Source of the DNA: a bacterium
GTDB taxonomy: Bacteria; Bacillota_I; Bacilli_A; RF39; UBA660
Reading direction: 5' to 3'
DNA length: 11,783 nucleotides
Assembly: GCA_004560915.1 (NCBI GenBank)
Contig: SFTR01000023.1
Coordinates: 1 to 11,783 of the forward strand
Position 1 is the stretch's first letter. Each line of letters begins with the position of its first letter. The notes beneath the pieces were generated by a model. It was given only the letters and a program-made list of their open reading frames with translations. It did not search any database and was not told the DNA's origin. Shown one piece after another: positions 1,540-8,023 of this stretch. Position numbers and translations under genes: made by a program.

Positions 1540-1821
1540 ATGAAAGTAGCAATAAGTTATGGTACAAGTCTAGATGATAGTGATTATTTAAGTTTTAATA
1601 TTAAAAATATAGAGTTATATAAATTTTTGAATGATTTAGGAATTAAAATTAAAAAAGAAAATGATAGTGAAATAGAATATGAAGTTGGAAAACATATATT
1701 TCATGATGTATTTTGGGAAGGAACAATATTAAAAGTTGATGATTTAATTTTAATAATTTCATTCAAACAAGGTATTAAAAGAATAGCAAAAGGCCATCAT
1801 AGTATCAAGAAAATAATTTAG
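1540..1821 (+). CDS. Small hypothetical protein, 93 residues
   Basis: I do not recognise this protein. It has a strong Shine-Dalgarno (AAAGGAG, six-base spacing), an extended -10 just upstream and codon use like its neighbours, so it is likely real. There is no signal peptide or membrane segment; the sequence alternates charged/beta-like stretches (MKVAISYGTSLDDSDYLSF, then EYEVGKHIFHDVFWEGTILK) and ends in a basic tail (KRIAKGHHSIKKII). It lies convergent with the C-terminal half of the split PBP gene, and the two stop codons overlap (TAG 1819-1821 on +, TAA 1818-1820 on -), with no terminator between them. Its function cannot be inferred from context. Confidence 0.7.
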   Translation: MKVAISYGTSLDDSDYLSFNIKNIELYKFLNDLGIKIKKENDSEIEYEVGKHIFHDVFWEGTILKVDDLILIISFKQGIKRIAKGHHSIKKII

Positions 1822-2843
1822 TTTAATAATACTTTTATAGTACTACCTTCTTTAGTTCTTGAGTTAACACTAGGACTAGTATCAATAACTTTGTCACCAT
1901 CTCCTACAAATTCAATACTAAATCCATTAAGAAGCTTTCTAGCATCTTTTTTAGTTTTACCAATCACATCAGGTATCATTACATACTTAATATCATCCCA
2001 TCTATATACTTTAGGAAGTCCACTTACATCTTCCTTTAAATCATAAATTGATATTATATCTTTAAGTACATTACGAGCAATAGGAGCACTCACAACACCA
2101 CCATATTGAGTAACTCCTTTAGGATGATCAAGTGCAATATATATAACAAACTCCGGATCATTAGCAGGCATAAATCCAATAAACGAAAGAATATAGTTAC
2201 CACTCATATATCTTCCATCACTACCAACTTTTTGAGCAGTACCAGTTTTACCACCAACTCTATAGTTTTCAATATATGCGTTCCTTCCACTACCATTAGC
2301 AACAACACTCTCAAGAGCATACTTAACAACATCACTAGTTTCTTTACTAATAACATTCCTTCTTTTAATAGTTGGACTAATACTTCTATCACCAACTTCA
2401 CTAACTACATATGGAACATACAAAGAGCCACCATTAACTATAGAACTAACAGCGGTAACTTGTTGAATAGGTGTAACACTAATACCTTGGCCAAACGCAC
2501 TAGTAGCAAGTTCTACAGGCCCAATCTTATCCATTTTAAAAAGTATACCAGTTCCTTCACCATTTAAATCAATACCGGTTTTTTTACCAAAACCAAGCTC
2601 AGTAATATATTTAAATAATAATTCTTTACCAAGCTTTTGCCCTAAAGATACAAATCCTGGGTTACATGAATTTTCTACTACTTGCACATATGTTTGATCA
2701 CCATGACCTTTTCTTTTCCAACAGTGTAGGGTAGCATTAGCAACTTTAACTTTTCCAGTGTCATAAAAATGATCTTCAAATATATTAACTTTTCCTTCAT
2801 TAATAGCTGCAGCAAGAGTAACTATTTTGAACGTACTTACCAT
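1818..2843 (-). pseudogene. C-terminal half of split SpoVD/FtsI-type class B PBP (transpeptidase + PASTA)
   Basis: This is the distal part of a penicillin-binding transpeptidase that crosslinks peptidoglycan on the outer face of the membrane. Visible from its ATG: STFK at 3-6 (the first active-site motif), SCN at 59-61 (SxN motif), KTGT at 199-202, and one PASTA domain at about 287-341 (PDVIGKTKKDARKLL...). It lacks the membrane anchor, the dimerisation domain and the start of the transpeptidase domain, all of which are in the ORF at 6987-7943. The first codons (ATG GTA AGT ACG) come from the inserted element, and no convincing RBS precedes them (only GGATT about ten bases upstream), so it is probably not translated usefully while the element is present. 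An element-borne terminator lies just upstream. One PASTA domain and a joined length of about 629 residues fit SpoVD better than a divisome PBP2B, but there is no dcw cluster or sporulation gene nearby to settle this. Confidence 0.85.
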
Positions 2844-2851
2844 TTAGTGAT
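2815..2851 (-). other. Left element/chromosome junction (hybrid att site)
   Basis: PBP coding sequence lies left of the core TT (2827-2828, + strand) and element sequence lies right of it. The element end begins GAACGTACTTACC on the + strand. The shared stretch TTGAA (2827-2831) is repeated at 7063-7067, the other junction. The core assignment is inferred from comparing the two ends and from the palindrome formed when the element ends are joined. Confidence 0.75.
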
Positions 2852-2856
2852 AATCC

Positions 2857-2890
2857 AAATAAAAAAGGAATATATTTATTATATTCCTTA
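2857..2890 (-). terminator. Terminator of the cargo operon at the element's left edge
   Basis: AAGGAATATA (2865-2874) pairs with TATATTCCTT (2880-2889) over a five-base loop; on the minus strand it runs into TTTTTTATTT. The hairpin includes the TAA stop of the ArsC/Spx-like gene (2888-2890). It should stop transcription leaving the element just before the PBP C-terminal half. Confidence 0.85.
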
Positions 2891-3232
2891 AATGGTATTC
2901 CATTCTTTTTCTTTAAATCCTATTAAAACTGAATCATCTAATTCTAGTAATGGTCTTTTTACAAGCATACCATCACTACTCAGAACTTGTAATTTTTCTT
3001 CATAGGACATAGTTTGAATCTTATCTTTTAGTTTTAATTCTTTGTATTTTAATCCACTAGTATTAAAAAATTTATTAATATCTTTACCGGATTTTTGGAT
3101 TAATCTATCTAACTCATAAACATTTAGTTTATCAATAACTATATTTCTAATTTTATAATTAAAGTTTTTAGATTCTAAGTATTTTTTAGCTTTTTGACAA
3201 GTACTACATTTTGGATATTCAAATAATAACAT
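2888..3232 (-). CDS. ArsC/Spx-family thioredoxin-fold protein
   Basis: A 114-residue cytosolic protein of the ArsC/Spx family. It opens with a beta strand and a CxxC redox motif (YPKCSTCQKA, C9 and C12), has the family's mid-region NTSGLKYKEL at about 57-66, and carries VKRPLLEL at about 91-98 with the conserved Arg (R93) and cis-Pro. Family members are glutaredoxin-like arsenate reductases, Spx/MgsR regulators that bind RNA polymerase under disulfide stress, or uncharacterised reductases; the sequence alone does not separate these. The CxxC pair favours Spx/MgsR or a general thiol-redox role. It is the last gene of the minus-strand cargo operon, 29 bases after the Hrb-like gene, with its own AAAGGA-type RBS and a terminator overlapping its stop. 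The company of superoxide reductase and rubredoxin suggests oxidative-stress work (inference). Confidence 0.8.
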   Translation of the reverse strand: MLLFEYPKCSTCQKAKKYLESKNFNYKIRNIVIDKLNVYELDRLIQKSGKDINKFFNTSGLKYKELKLKDKIQTMSYEEKLQVLSSDGMLVKRPLLELDDSVLIGFKEKEWNTI

Positions 3233-3261
3233 ATATTATAGTCCTTTCTAAGATAGTATTA

Positions 3262-3909
3262 TTAATCCTCAATTAATTCAAAATATTCTTTTCCAACACC
3301 GCAGATAGGGCATACAAAATTATCAGGTAACTCATCGCCCTCATAAATATATCCGCAAAAAGAACATTTCCATTTTTTTGTTTTACCTTCCTTATTAGAT
3401 TGAGGTATACTTTTTTCTTCATAAGTTGGTGCATTTTTAGGTGAACTTCCTTTTAAGTATTCATGATAATATTTATATGTCATAGCATTTTCATTACTAT
3501 AATCGTCTGCTTCAACAACTTCACCTAAAAATATTGTATGAGTTGAAGTTTCCATCATATCAATTACTTTACAAACCATATATCCACAAGTATCTTCTAA
3601 AACTGGTATTTCTGAAATAACTTTAAAATTGATACCATCAAATTTATCAGTATCATTACTAGATTTAAAACCAAATGTTCCTATGATTTTAGGGTCTGTT
3701 GTTTCCTTTAATATTGAAACTCCAAATTTTTTAGTCTCTTTTATTATTTTGTTAGTGTAATTATCATGATTAATGCTAACTGCTATTACAGAAGGGTTTG
3801 AAGTAACTTGCATAATGCTATTGGCAACACAACCAATATTTCTATCTTTATCTTTACTTGTTACTACATAAACACCATAAGATAGATTTCTTAATACTTT
3901 CTTATCCAT
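3262..3909 (-). CDS. hrb: Flavin reductase-rubredoxin fusion (high-molecular-weight rubredoxin, Hrb-like)
   Basis: The 215-residue protein joins two domains. Residues ~1-150 are an FMN-binding flavin reductase/flavoredoxin-like domain ([39 protein letters not shown]). Residues ~178-215 are a rubredoxin with C182, C185, C200 and C203 holding one Fe(Cys)4 ([12 protein letters not shown]...[13 protein letters not shown]). In Moorella-type anaerobes such Hrb proteins take electrons from NAD(P)H and pass them to oxygen- or NO-reducing flavodiiron proteins; rubredoxins also serve superoxide reductase. That fits a partner role for the desulfoferrodoxin two genes upstream. The start codon lies two bases after the SDR stop, and its RBS (AAGGAG, six bases before ATG) is inside the SDR 3' end, so the two are probably translationally coupled. 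Cytosolic; no signal peptide. Confidence 0.9.
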
Positions 3910-3911
3910 AG

Positions 3912-4655
3912 TTAACTCCTTGCTGCTCCATCAACTGATAAAACAACTCCTGTTATATAGCTAGCCATATCGCTTGCTAAAAATAGAAATGCATTAGCTA
4001 TATCTTCTGGTGTACCAATTCTACCTAAAGGTATTCCTTGGATAATTGGTTCAATAACACTATCAGGTACATTTTTCATCATATCAGTTAGTGTAACACC
4101 AGGAGCAACTGCATTAACTCTTATATTGTCTTTTCCTAATTCTCTGGCTAATGATTTTGTAAGACCATTGACTGCAAATTTACTTGCTGGATAACCACAA
4201 CCAGATGGCTGTCCATAAATACTTACCATTGAAGAAGTATTTAAGATTACTCCACCACCATTTTTCTTCATATAATCTACAACTGCACGAGAACAATTGA
4301 ATACAGCATTTACATTTAAATCTATTATTTTTTTAAAATCTTCTTCTTTGTAATCATAAATCTTATCCATTGCACTCATTCCAGCATTGTTAACTAGAAT
4401 ATCAATTTTGCCATACTTTTCTATAATATGACTAAATGATTTTTTAACTGAAGTCAAATCACATAAATTTGGACAATCTCCATCTACTTCATAATTATCA
4501 TTTATATTTTTAAGTGTCTTAATTGCATTATCAACACTTTCTTTTTTGGAACCAAGTAGAAATACTTTAGCTCCATTTTTTAAAAATTTTTCTACTGTAG
4601 CAAAACCAATACCACGAGTACCACCTGTTACTACAGCAACTTTTCCTTCTAACAT
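3912..4655 (-). CDS. SDR-family oxidoreductase (FabG-like)
   Basis: A classical short-chain dehydrogenase of 247 residues, the usual family length. It shows the cofactor motif TGGTRGIG (10-17), NNAG at 89-92, the catalytic set Asn114, Ser142, Tyr155 and Lys159 (YPASK), and a C-terminal [17 protein letters not shown] stretch typical of FabG-like 3-oxoacyl-ACP reductases. It would reduce or oxidise a carbonyl/alcohol with NAD(P)H in the cytosol. The substrate is unknown: many SDRs annotated FabG are not fatty-acid enzymes, and a single copy inside a stress-type operon argues against a housekeeping role. Strong RBS (GGGAGGA). It sits 25 bases after the desulfoferrodoxin gene and two bases before the Hrb-like gene. 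The nicotinamide link to the neighbouring NAD(P)H-using flavin reductase is suggestive only. Confidence 0.88.
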
Positions 4656-4680
4656 ATTATTCCTCCCATATAATTTTTAT

Positions 4681-5046
4681 CTATTCAACTACTTTTGACC
4701 ATAAAGAATGTTTGTTACAATAAGAGTATATTGTTGCTCCTTTTACATATTTAAATGTTGCAATTGGTTCATCACCTGGATCAAAATAAACTATTTGTTC
4801 ATTATTATCATATACATAACTAATCCATTCTATATAATGTTCTTCTTCCATCACGTGATTAACTTTTACATTAATATTTTCACCATATATTTGATATTCT
4901 GGTACATGCTTTTCAAATGAAGCATCTACGCTATTAGGTTCTATATCCTCTAGTGTTTCGCCACAACATGTAATTTTACAGTTATCGCAATTACAATCTT
5001 CTAATACTTTTATAAGCAAACCACATTTATTACATCTTTTTAACAC
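4681..5046 (-). CDS. dfx: Desulfoferrodoxin (two-iron superoxide reductase)
   Basis: This 121-residue protein reduces superoxide to hydrogen peroxide without releasing oxygen, using electrons usually delivered by rubredoxin. The N-terminal desulforedoxin-like domain has C5, C8 and the adjacent pair C27-C28 for the Fe(Cys)4 centre. The C-terminal SOR domain has the EKHVPEY loop (E45, K46, H47), H64, H70 and the CNKH motif (C110, H113) that bind the catalytic iron. Three extra cysteines (CNCDNC, 18-23) lie between the two pairs and are not part of the canonical ligand set. The start is GTG at 5046: GGAGG lies six bases upstream, while the overlapping ATG at 5048 is out of frame and stops after two codons. 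It is the first cargo gene, 55 bases after the recombinase, with a TATAAT in the gap. Confidence 0.92.
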   Translation of the reverse strand: MLKRCNKCGLLIKVLEDCNCDNCKITCCGETLEDIEPNSVDASFEKHVPEYQIYGENINVKVNHVMEEEHYIEWISYVYDNNEQIVYFDPGDEPIATFKYVKGATIYSYCNKHSLWSKVVE

Positions 5047-5066
5047 ATTATTCCTCCTTATAAAAT

Positions 5067-5072
5067 ATTATA
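5067..5072 (-). promoter_or_regulatory. Candidate -10 box for the cargo operon
   Basis: A perfect TATAAT on the minus strand, about 20 bases before the desulfoferrodoxin GTG and its AAGGAGG RBS. The upstream -35 region is only a T-run, so the promoter is tentative; it would allow cargo expression independent of the recombinase. Confidence 0.4.
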
Positions 5073-5101
5073 CAATAATTTAATTAAATAAAAAAGTTAA
5101 A

Positions 5102-6832
5102 TTAAAATGTTTTTACATAGACATCATATGTAAATATATTAGTATTATCAAGTGATCTCTTAGATTCAACTGTGTTACAAGTTTGATTTTTTATATAAAG
5201 AATATAATCAGTAGTAGGACCGTTAATATGTCTTGCACCCTTAATTTTTAATTTTTCTTCTCCTAATAAATCTAAATATATATCAAGTTTAATATTATAT
5301 CTATCTCCATCTATTTTAGAGATAATTATTTCATCAACAAATTTTCTAATAAATTCGCTTAATGAACCACAATTAAGTTCTTTTTCAATTAATTCTGCCA
5401 TTACATTAAGATTATTATTACTATCATTTAATTGTTTGACTTGTTTAATTATAATAGTTTTCTTTTCATTCAAACTTTTAATTTCCTGCTCATACTTATC
5501 AAATTGAACCTTAACAGACTCTTTACTTATATCTCCGTTAAAAACTAATTCAAGAGTCATTGATTTCTTTTCTTCAATAATTTTTATTTTAGTATTAAGC
5601 AATTTTAATTCTTTATCATAGTAATCATTTTTATCTATATTTTCATATAACTTTAGCATATTTTTAATAATGTTTGTCTTTTGTGGGACGATACTAATCA
5701 TTATGGATGACATAATATTATATAAATCTACTTCTGCAATAATTGGAGATTTACATGCTGCTAATCTATGTTGTAGATACATACCACAACTCCATATCGG
5801 TCTACTTTTATTTTTATTACCATGTGATCTTTGAAAACTAGTATTATGTTCTTTACAATATATTTTAGAACTAAAAGCATATTTTAAGCCACCGGACCAA
5901 TAATTATTATTTTCATATCCTTTAGTACGCGATTTTAATATTCTGTTTGCTTGATTCCAAAGTTCCTCAGATATAATTGCTGGAATACTTCCGTCTTTAC
6001 ATTTATATAATATTTGTTCATCTAAATTATTTTTTTTTCGTCTTTTAGTTCTATAATCAAGTATCTCATAAGTTCTTGCGCGGTAATATCCTTTGTATTT
6101 AGGATTTTCTATCATACGTTTTAAAGAATCTTTATCATATAATTTTCCTTTTTTATTTAGATAGCCTAACTCTGATAGTTTCTTTGATAATTTTAGAAAA
6201 CCATATTTCCCAGTTGCATATAGTTCAAATAATGTTTTTATAAATTTTGCTTCATTTTCTACAATAACTAATTTACAATTATCTTTTCTATATCCAGTAA
6301 TATTTGAGCTACCTAACACATGACCATTTTCAATTGCCTGTCTATGTCCAAATTTTACTCTTGAAGATAATTTTCTTGACTCATCTTGAGCTAAATTAAA
6401 CATTATATTTAATATAAGCTCAGAATTATAATCAAATGTATTCAAATTTTGATTTTCAAAAAACACACCAACTCCAGAATCTTTTAACTCTCTTATATAA
6501 TGAATACTATCTTCTAAATCACGAGCAAATCTGGATACTTCTTTTGTAATTATCAAATCAAATTTTTTATGTTTTGCATCTTGTATCATTTTTTTAAAAC
6601 TTGGTCTAACATCAACTCTAACACCTGTTTTACCTTCTTCAATATAGCCACCAGAAAATATCCATTTTGGTTTTGATTTAATATAGTTTTCATAATATTC
6701 TAATTGATTATCTAGCGAATTTAATTGGACATCAGAATCTGTTGAAACTCTACAATAATAACATACTCTAAGAGGAAGATTATAAATTTTTTCTCCAAGC
6801 ATTATTGCTTTTAATATTTCATCATAATTCAT
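5102..6832 (-). CDS. Large serine recombinase (site-specific integrase)
   Basis: A 576-residue member of the large serine recombinase family, which integrates and excises DNA by double-strand cleavage at 2-bp staggered cores. The resolvase-type catalytic domain (~20-165) contains YYCRVST with nucleophile Ser30 and Arg28, and EVSRFARD (~98-105) with the catalytic arginines. A 'Recombinase' DNA-binding domain spans ~175-300 (NPKYKGYYRARTYEI). A zinc ribbon follows, with ligands apparently C326, H329, C349 and C360 (CxxH in place of the usual first CxxC). A charged coiled-coil (~385-470) precedes the tail. All parts needed for activity appear intact. RBS AGAGGA lies seven bases before ATG. It is the only recombinase in the element and faces the same way as the interrupted PBP, so it may be transcribed from the PBP promoter. 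Confidence 0.95.
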   Translation of the reverse strand: MNYDEILKAIMLGEKIYNLPLRVCYYCRVSTDSDVQLNSLDNQLEYYENYIKSKPKWIFSGGYIEEGKTGVRVDVRPSFKKMIQDAKHKKFDLIITKEVSRFARDLEDSIHYIRELKDSGVGVFFENQNLNTFDYNSELILNIMFNLAQDESRKLSSRVKFGHRQAIENGHVLGSSNITGYRKDNCKLVIVENEAKFIKTLFELYATGKYGFLKLSKKLSELGYLNKKGKLYDKDSLKRMIENPKYKGYYRARTYEILDYRTKRRKKNNLDEQILYKCKDGSIPAIISEELWNQANRILKSRTKGYENNNYWSGGLKYAFSSKIYCKEHNTSFQRSHGNKNKSRPIWSCGMYLQHRLAACKSPIIAEVDLYNIMSSIMISIVPQKTNIIKNMLKLYENIDKNDYYDKELKLLNTKIKIIEEKKSMTLELVFNGDISKESVKVQFDKYEQEIKSLNEKKTIIIKQVKQLNDSNNNLNVMAELIEKELNCGSLSEFIRKFVDEIIISKIDGDRYNIKLDIYLDLLGEEKLKIKGARHINGPTTDYILYIKNQTCNTVESKRSLDNTNIFTYDVYVKTF

Positions 6833-6850
6833 AATAGATTCCTCTCATAA

Positions 6851-6997
6851 TTAATAAGTGTTTTGCAATACTTTGAGATTTTTTAATAGTTTATCATTTA
6901 CTTTTGAAAATGTATTTTCATCAATTAAATTTTTTCTATATAAATTATTATTAATTATTATTTGTATTTGAACTTCAAAAATTTTATTATTTATCAA
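6851..6997 (-). CDS. 48-residue ORF directly upstream of the recombinase (SHOCT-like, candidate accessory factor)
   Basis: A short open frame starts at TTG (6995-6997), with GGTGA six bases upstream, and ends TAA at 6851-6853, 18 bases before the recombinase ATG. The product is helical and charged (KIFEVQIQIII, NLYRKNLIDENTFSKVNDKLL). A pattern of 'L..k.LI....f.k.n.kLL' resembles the small SHOCT-like proteins often encoded immediately ahead of clostridial large serine recombinases. It overlaps the artificial 3' end of the PBP N-terminal half, so its translation could be coupled to ribosomes finishing that ORF. Its role is unknown; an excision or directionality factor is a guess from position. 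The unusual start and short length lower confidence. Confidence 0.5.
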   Translation of the reverse strand: MINNKIFEVQIQIIINNNLYRKNLIDENTFSKVNDKLLKNLKVLQNTY

Positions 6998-7943
6998 TCA
7001 TCATCACCAATAAATAATATTTATAAATAAAAAAATAATTACTAAAAAGTAGAGTGACGTTCTTGAAAGTAGAACCTGGTTCAAAGTTAGACCATATTGC
7101 AAGATTTCTATTTATTACTTCAGTACTATATTCTTTATAATTAGCTGGTTCAAAAGAAGGATAACTACTCATTGCAAGAATTTCACCAGTTTTAGGATTC
7201 ATAACAAGTCCTATAGCTCCTTCAGCTTCATACTTAGTGTAAGCATTTGAAAGCTCATTTTCTAGTGATAACTGAATATCTAAATCAATAGTAAGCTTTA
7301 TATCATTACCATTTTCTGGTTCACTATATATTTCAGGCATAGAAAGTCTTTTACCTTTGCCATCACTAAAATACTTAATACTACCATTCTTACCAGTTAA
7401 TTCTTTATCATACTTAAGTTCAAGCCCGCTAAGACCTTGATTATCAATACCAGTGTATCCAATTACGTGAGATAAAACATTCTTATATTTATAATCTCTT
7501 TTAGATTCTTTTAATAAATAAACTCCATCATAATTATAACTATTTATTTTATCAGCTATTTCAAAATCTAAATTTCTACCTTCAGGATGGACTCTTTCAA
7601 TTGATGTTTTCTTACTTACATGTTTCATCATCTCTTCATAACTAACGCCAAGTATTTCAGATAACGTTCTAGCAACCTCTTCTTTATTAAGTATTTGACT
7701 AGGTACTAAGTATAGTCCAACAGTAGTAACATTATCTACAATAACTTTACCATTTCTATCAAGTATTTTACCTCTATCAGCCTGTACTGTTAAATTACGA
7801 CTCCATAGTTCACTTGCAAGAGTATTTAATTTTCTATATTCAATAACTTGTATATAAAAAATTTTAACTATAATAAAAAAGAACACTATAAGTGAAATAA
7901 CAAATACAATTCTTATTCTTTTATTTTGTATACTTTGAAACAC
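6987..7943 (-). CDS. N-terminal half of split SpoVD/FtsI-type class B PBP
   Basis: This half holds a short cytoplasmic tail, a membrane anchor (about 12-32), the PBP dimerisation domain (RGKILDRNG at 57-65), HVIGYTG and the opening of the transpeptidase domain (IGLVMNPKTGEILAMSSYPSF), ending in FEPGSTFK with catalytic Ser291 and Lys294. The last 24 residues (NVTLLFSNYFF...) are encoded by the inserted element and replace IVTLAAAI and all later motifs. The product can insert in the membrane but lacks SxN, KTG and PASTA, so it cannot be an active transpeptidase. The start is GTG (7941-7943) with GGTGA upstream; a nearby ATG is out of frame. Divergent from lemA. If membrane-inserted, a truncated product could compete with full-length protein or be degraded. 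Confidence 0.88.
   Translation of the reverse strand: MFQSIQNKRIRIVFVISLIVFFFIIVKIFYIQVIEYRKLNTLASELWSRNLTVQADRGKILDRNGKVIVDNVTTVGLYLVPSQILNKEEVARTLSEILGVSYEEMMKHVSKKTSIERVHPEGRNLDFEIADKINSYNYDGVYLLKESKRDYKYKNVLSHVIGYTGIDNQGLSGLELKYDKELTGKNGSIKYFSDGKGKRLSMPEIYSEPENGNDIKLTIDLDIQLSLENELSNAYTKYEAEGAIGLVMNPKTGEILAMSSYPSFEPANYKEYSTEVINRNLAIWSNFEPGSTFKNVTLLFSNYFFIYKYYLLVMMIDK
7041..7085 (-). other. Right element/chromosome junction (hybrid att site)
   Basis: PBP sequence lies right of the core TT (7063-7064, + strand); element sequence lies left. The element end reads GTGACGTTC into the core on the + strand, mirror-matching GAACGT at 2829-2834. An outer block ACTAAA occurs at both element ends in inverted orientation (7041-7046 here; read on the minus strand at the left end) at slightly different distances. 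Confidence 0.75.
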
Positions 7944-7971
7944 AATATCACCATTAAATTATATTCAAAGA

Positions 7972-8000
7972 TTGAAAAAACATAATAATTATTATATACT
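7972..8000 (+). promoter_or_regulatory. Sigma-A-type promoter of the lemA operon
   Basis: TTGAAA (7972-7977) and TATACT (7995-8000) are separated by exactly 17 bases, 23 bases before the lemA ATG. The spacer contains the palindrome ATAATAATTATTAT (7982-7995), which could serve as a regulator site or hold a -10 for the divergent PBP gene (TATAAT on the minus strand at 7991-7996). Confidence 0.6.
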
Positions 8001-8023
8001 TATCTTAAGAAAGTAGGGAAATT

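Follow-up and report, generated by a model that had tools for sequence, protein, structure and literature searches.

The stretch of DNA analysed here (the window; 11,783 nucleotides, contig SFTR01000023.1 of assembly GCA_004560915.1), from an uncultured gut bacterium, contains spoVD, a class B penicillin-binding protein (PBP) gene, as two collinear parts on the minus strand (7943-7063, then 2831-1818), separated by an intervening element that encodes a large serine recombinase (LSR). The 5′ part (7063-7943) has a GTG start and runs to the crossover core, its open frame continuing to 6987 within the element, and the 3′ part (1818-2831) encodes the rest of the transpeptidase domain and PASTA. 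By NCBIfam profile search, the N-terminal open reading frame (ORF; 6987-7943) covers positions 3-296 of TIGR02214 (spoVD) and the C-terminal ORF (1818-2843) covers positions 289-632. In Pfam terms, the former holds PBP_dimer and the beginning of Transpeptidase, the latter the remaining Transpeptidase and PASTA. The core TTCAA is common to 7067-7063 (attL) and 2831-2827 (attR), at a spacing of 4,236 bp, and the break falls inside the SxxK codons (S-T-F-K) of the window spoVD. The region upstream of the gene (7944-8023, minus strand), which extends to a divergent LemA gene, would hold the spoVD promoter.

Joining the two parts at TTCAA gives 629 residues followed by a stop. The element lies inside a sporulation gene and carries its own LSR, and its precise removal would restore the spoVD reading frame, three traits of sporulation gene-intervening elements of the skin/SPbeta/gin/vfbin/yin kind. 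A search of the joined protein against 5.8 billion proteins returned an uninterrupted counterpart at 100% identity and 100% coverage. Among the best 120 of 7,998 clusters, 34 match the joined protein at 98-100% identity from end to end, and two of these lie on contigs of 1.38 and 1.41 Mb. Intact alleles exceed the TIGR02214 cut-off of 688 bits (P0121, 695.7; P0123, 694.8; P0132, 694.6), and with the transpeptidase and PASTA domains present this assigns the protein to SpoVD. The window recombinase was likewise recovered near-identically (97-100% identity in all of the best 120 of 6,446 matching clusters), so that near-identical alleles with and without the element occur, presumably within one species. 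The empty allele matches the sequence predicted by the join, and the intervening element at the catalytic codons of spoVD is real. An earlier note, made on this DNA from its letters alone, had described a PBP split at SxxK, with both halves in order on the minus strand and an intact LSR between them, and had proposed that joining at TTCAA restores a spoVD-like class B PBP with PASTA; all of this is borne out. The note had also named beforehand what would speak against its proposal, namely halves that are separate genes of different origin, or residues lacking at the join: neither speaks against it, as unsplit relatives were found and the window's join lacks no residue.

The whole element (2832-7067, minus strand) measures 4,236 bp including one core copy, and all its ORFs share the strand of spoVD. 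Directly before the LSR (5102-6832; 576 aa, Resolvase and Recombinase domains in Pfam) lies a small ORF of 48 aa (6851-6997) with a TTG start after GGTGATGATGA, a candidate recombination directionality factor. The cargo annotated with Pfam and NCBIfam comprises a desulfoferrodoxin-like protein (4681-5046), a short-chain dehydrogenase/reductase (3912-4655), a flavin reductase with a rubredoxin domain (3262-3909) and an ArsC/Spx-family protein (2888-3232); as a whole (2888-5046) it reads as a redox or oxygen-stress operon. An A+T-rich hairpin followed by a T run (2861-2889), picked out by eye, is a possible weak terminator before attR; it falls below the threshold of a terminator scan that gave no terminators in the window. 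The element ends share only the short core, and no long direct repeat spans both ends among the 20 of 37 repeat families listed. Neither a phage structural protein among the five long ORFs nor conjugation genes (relaxase, coupling protein) among the element ORFs was found with Pfam and NCBIfam, so the element is classed neither as a prophage nor as an integrative and conjugative element (ICE). The window recombinase has no relative in viral_contigs, its phage and plasmid matches are all below 60% identity, and the window DNA has no plasmid match. Over positions 1-800 of the window, G+C drops from 0.44 to 0.24 and an amidohydrolase fragment ORF ends in an unrelated coiled-coil-like tail; this left end is probably a chimeric contig end.

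Splitting of spoVD was surveyed in 193 genomes drawn evenly from the order of G004, itself a carrier; genome counts for spoVD, spoIVA and gyrB refer to the matches listed, with the weakest matches outside. Classified by eye, spoVD is full-length in 111 genomes, ends near residue 417 in 17 and appears as other pieces in 43, while 18 have a weaker match only (mostly the FtsI-like paralogue, and some may conceal a spoVD piece) and 4 have no match. The 43 genomes with other pieces are broken near 350 (SxN) in 28 cases and near 297 (SxxK) in 12, and 3 are unclear (G027, G076, G096). Altogether, 57 of 168 classifiable spoVD genes are broken, at three codon positions: the motifs SxxK (site 1), SxN (site 2) and GQGxxxTPxQ (site 3). 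When the 43 are combined with 7 further carriers from a recombinase scan, more than one site reads as broken in 16 of the resulting 50 genomes, and all three do in G017 and G171; mixed strains may inflate these multi-site counts, because pieces are often on separate contigs and those of G185 conflict. All 21 junctions with both sides on the same contig (12 at site 1 including the window, 5 at site 2 and 4 at site 3) rejoin in frame without a stop, the crossover being chosen as the best fit to the reference, which favours restoration. The motif region is without gain or loss of a residue in 20 of them; the site-2 join of L003 has three residues beyond the expected motif, possibly owing to the tblastn register.

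The scan of genome contigs yielded 47 loci with a related recombinase. At all 11 loci with at least 60% identity (L001-L011), a spoVD piece ending or starting at SxxK adjoins the LSR, and at the other 36 nothing matched the PBP queries (E 1e-5). Of these 36, 24 (within L012-L042) carry an ORF from a family of ABC substrate-binding proteins, split by the element in those read, and in this transporter-type sister family a small ORF precedes the LSR in 20 of the 22 rows examined. Matches to the window recombinase at E <= 1e-110 occur in 8 of 395 genomes of the class, all within the order sample.

A quick tree of the fetched loci (56 of 70 extracted LSRs, with loci L048-L078 outside the extraction) resolved the 17 site-1, 8 site-2 and 7 site-3 LSRs as one clade per site (SH-aLRT 100), in agreement with the earlier suggestion that conserved active-site codons are the targets. 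Open frames of 517 to 634 codons are kept by 28 of the 32, and the LSRs of L010 and L087 run to or near the contig end. Directly before the LSR, a small ORF of similar look (likeness judged by eye) is found in 17/17 site-1, 8/8 site-2 and 7/7 site-3 cases; that of the window has no Pfam family above the cut-off, and two site-1 relatives match SHOCT_2 weakly (E 0.014 and 0.071). The LSR follows the spoVD 5′ part in some loci, the window among them, and precedes the 3′ part in others; in G007 (L007, L115) it is reversed. The 21 elements compared range from 2.5 to 15.5 kb and vary widely in gene content, with some genes common to related elements; in those other than the window's, phage and conjugation genes were judged by eye only. 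Other elements carry genes different from the window cargo, and the ORFs of a 13.8-kb site-3 element (L091 3919-17714, G168) look by eye like a radical-SAM peptide or natural-product cluster.

Across 136 pairs of site-1 loci, the identity of the recombinases does not track that of the spoVD N parts (r = 0.07), and between the window and L001 the recombinases are 82% identical and the host proteins 58%. This indicates horizontal movement of the elements, with repeated entry into the same codons. A tree of spoVD N parts was built from 52 rows, of which only 14 are unsplit; having been picked by closeness to the window, these are few and biased. The tree requires 12 changes of the site-1 label, no fewer than 8 of them forced by starred branches. 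Shuffled labels need 15.6 changes on average, and since only 18 of 500 shuffles are as low as observed, there is some clustering of the label. The uninterrupted near-identical allele, the value of r and the label changes on this tree led us to reject a vertically inherited, fixed switch. The pieces and the LSRs are under purifying selection: dN/dS is 0.02-0.10 for the N piece (five pairs) and 0.02-0.14 for the C piece (four pairs), a measure that is blind to whether the constraint acted during the split state. For the pair G002-G010, dS is 0.15 for the LSR vs 0.69 for the spoVD N part.

Splitting was also compared among genes that we take to be mother-cell (spoVD, spoIVA, spoIID) or forespore (spoVAD) genes. 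Among 26 genomes re-searched because spoIVA looked fragmentary, the gene is broken near position 122 in 13 and near position 402 in 4, with G185 unclear. An LSR from a clade other than those of spoVD adjoins the spoIVA piece in 7 of 14 fetched loci (L119-L132), most of the rest ending at contig edges; the LSRs of the first spoIVA site are weakly related, and those of the second are 44% identical to the site-3 type. No split was seen in gyrB: the cut-off is passed in 90 of 97 genomes, where every match spans 631 or more of the 639 positions, a count that leaves aside 7 genomes, among them G035 with three matches. For spoVAD, none of the 83 of 97 genomes with a match has two part-length pieces, and the FtsI-like paralogue gives one row per genome in all 50 split genomes, with frames of 575-795 aa and no second piece listed. 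Of the genes compared, two mother-cell genes are thus recurrently split, whereas no such splitting was seen in a forespore gene, a housekeeping gene or the close paralogue; nor does the pattern extend to mother-cell genes in general.

Most of the order probably sporulates or recently did so, since spoIVA (TIGR02836) is found in 177 of the 193 genomes (163 above the cut-off); among 14 controls it was found in B. subtilis alone. The motif CATANNNT, which we take to resemble the -10 element of mother-cell sigma factors, occurs within 60 bp upstream of spoVD in 39 of 52 regions (shuffle mean 4.8, maximum 14), mostly 22-26 bp before the start. A general promoter scan of the window was uninformative (46 promoter-like sites vs 42.7 expected). 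Upstream of the transporter-type LSRs, CATA[TC]A is present in 7 of 19 regions vs a shuffle maximum of 5. Break points facing the low contig end lie within 150 bp of it in 12 of 41 cases, compared with 3 of 111 unsplit genes (counts by eye; Fisher p = 9e-6). Because assemblers stop where the path forks, the alternative junction was probably present in those samples.

We consider it probable that an LSR-encoding mobile element without recognised phage genes integrates site-specifically, using the SxxK codons of spoVD as attB, and that the LSR restores the gene by excision, most likely in the mother cell. In the split state, neither part of spoVD would yield the whole enzyme. Precise recombination of attL with attR by the LSR, probably aided by the small protein encoded just upstream, would free the element, most likely in the mother cell during sporulation. 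In the window the small ORF and LSR follow directly on the 5′ part of spoVD, so transcription running on from the spoVD promoter could conceivably express both in the right cell. The mother cell needs SpoVD and passes on no DNA, so an element excised there would still be kept in the spore line, at little cost to the host. The insertion is probably tolerated because the doomed mother cell is the only cell that requires spoVD.

The likeliest mechanism is developmental excision; its main rival is a plain insertion into a gene that the cell can spare. Under this rival, ordinary mobile elements park in spoVD and inactivate it, and carriers lose the cortex or sporulation without any programmed excision. 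SpoVD is indeed dispensable for growth, and strains without it are reported to make cortex-less spores (PMC3906833). Occupied and empty alleles in apparently one species, and the independent evolution of recombinase and host gene, favour the parking of elements. Several further observations weigh against excision in the mother cell. The related LSR family sits at an ABC substrate-binding protein gene, which is not a sporulation gene, and spoIID, over the cut-off in 36 of 60 genomes, is not recurrently split (in G022 it lies in two pieces on two contigs, and two rows have internal stops). Within 150 bp upstream of the spoVD-site LSRs CATANNNT is not enriched, and the window spoVD itself reads AATATAAT, not CATA, at the place of the motif. 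Among the spoVD-site LSRs, L112 (site 2) has an internal stop and L088 (site 3) reaches a length of only 349 aa. No excised circle or excised chromosome was seen in a carrier, the two junction patterns having 0 matches in viral_contigs, and both the allele polymorphism and the clustering at contig edges can arise from mixed strains. On the other side, the pieces stay open and conserved, an argument that is weak and does not prove use, because the elements may be younger than the lineages compared. The 16 genomes broken at two or three sites show no visible decay, and although about a third of spoVD genes are split, the order keeps spoIVA in most genomes. On balance, we regard parking in a dispensable gene as rather unlikely.

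Two other explanations fare far worse. Expression of the two parts separately, with assembly into a working enzyme without rejoining of the DNA, is very improbable. The 3′ part in the window does have an in-frame ATG and by chance reads S-T-F-K, so that Ser stands at the catalytic position on the attR side. In all 11 other same-contig loci read for site 1 that position is A, V, G or T, so the catalytic Ser is missing from attR by itself and comes only with the join; the two parts are therefore not separate enzymes. The break moreover cuts the transpeptidase domain, and sites 2 and 3 cut the same domain elsewhere. That an assembly artefact joined unrelated contigs is barely credible: the probably chimeric left end of the window (G+C 0.44 to about 0.25) lends it something, but the same arrangement at the same codons recurs in independent genomes, and two recombinase clusters lie on 27 and 45 contigs of up to 361 kb. 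The earlier interpretation is thus partly supported. The note had offered a switch or a tolerated insertion; a serine-recombinase element does split spoVD, but the presence of both alleles and the movement between species mean that it is no fixed switch. Mother-cell excision is plausible, and insertion in a dispensable gene stands as the less favoured alternative.

In our reading, these elements belong with the mobile intervening elements of the skin/gin kind, have a new target gene and are most probably removed from the DNA of the mother cell. A 2023 paper gives sigK, spsM, spoVFB, gerE and its own yabG as sporulation genes with such elements (PMC10747680). The skin element in sigK (spoIVCA in B. 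subtilis; C. difficile) likewise carries an LSR within an element that splits a mother-cell sporulation gene (PMC5025042, PMC10747680), and spoIVCA lies behind the 5′ part in the same orientation, as in the window (PMC10747680). It differs in that excision of skin has been demonstrated (PMC5025042, PMC10747680), whereas that of the spoVD element is deduced, and in that the window target, spoVD, encodes an enzyme and is entered by a 4.2-kb element in which no phage genes were seen and which moves horizontally. The gin element in gerE of B. cereus is also non-phage, with a serine recombinase, a short shared core and precise rejoining, and has a small directionality factor (PMC5595907), for which the small ORF is the candidate counterpart here. 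In contrast to gin, with 28.6 kb, 31 genes, three recombinases and one site in one gene (PMC5595907), the window element has one recombinase, and its kind occupies three sites in one gene across many species. SPbeta in spsM (PMC4191935), vfbin in spoVFB and yin in yabG (PMC10747680) also lie inside sporulation genes, and yin, like the spoVD element, has two states and is absent from close relatives (PMC10747680); these three are prophages or prophage-like, occupy other genes and, in the portions available, are not reported with multiple motif-specific recombinase clades. A mobile element in spoVD itself is known from ICEBs1 of B. subtilis, for which it serves in the laboratory as a secondary site that differs from attB by 8 mismatches and shows no detected excision (below 1e-4; PMC3715440), whereas here spoVD is a recurrent site of dedicated LSR clades. 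The present elements differ from known ones in target gene, three motif-specific clades, multiple occupancy and evident mobility. No paper pairing spoVD with 'intervening element' was found in an open-access collection that lacks most subscription papers, and the titles and abstract openings of 20 papers each on related elements in gut metagenome-assembled genomes and on LSRs with PBP attachment sites contain nothing on spoVD.

Three dedicated LSR clades thus enter one enzyme gene at three motifs, and they do so in roughly a third of the order's sampled species. A survey describes spoVD as reduced or absent in order RF39 (PMC10868615); if the sampled order is RF39, as it appears to be, splitting could contribute to such calls, which bears on genome-based sporulation calls in general. 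A broader proposal, on which our confidence is evenly divided, is that in one order of small-genome gut Bacilli mother-cell genes act like genes with DNA introns: three motif-specialised LSR clades place up to three elements in a gene, which are excised only in the terminal mother cell and spread between species through the germ-line/soma divide and near-invariant active-site codons. If excision is confirmed, the elements would provide matched recombinase/attB pairs whose target codons are known, and sporulation would appear to be a general refuge for mobile DNA.

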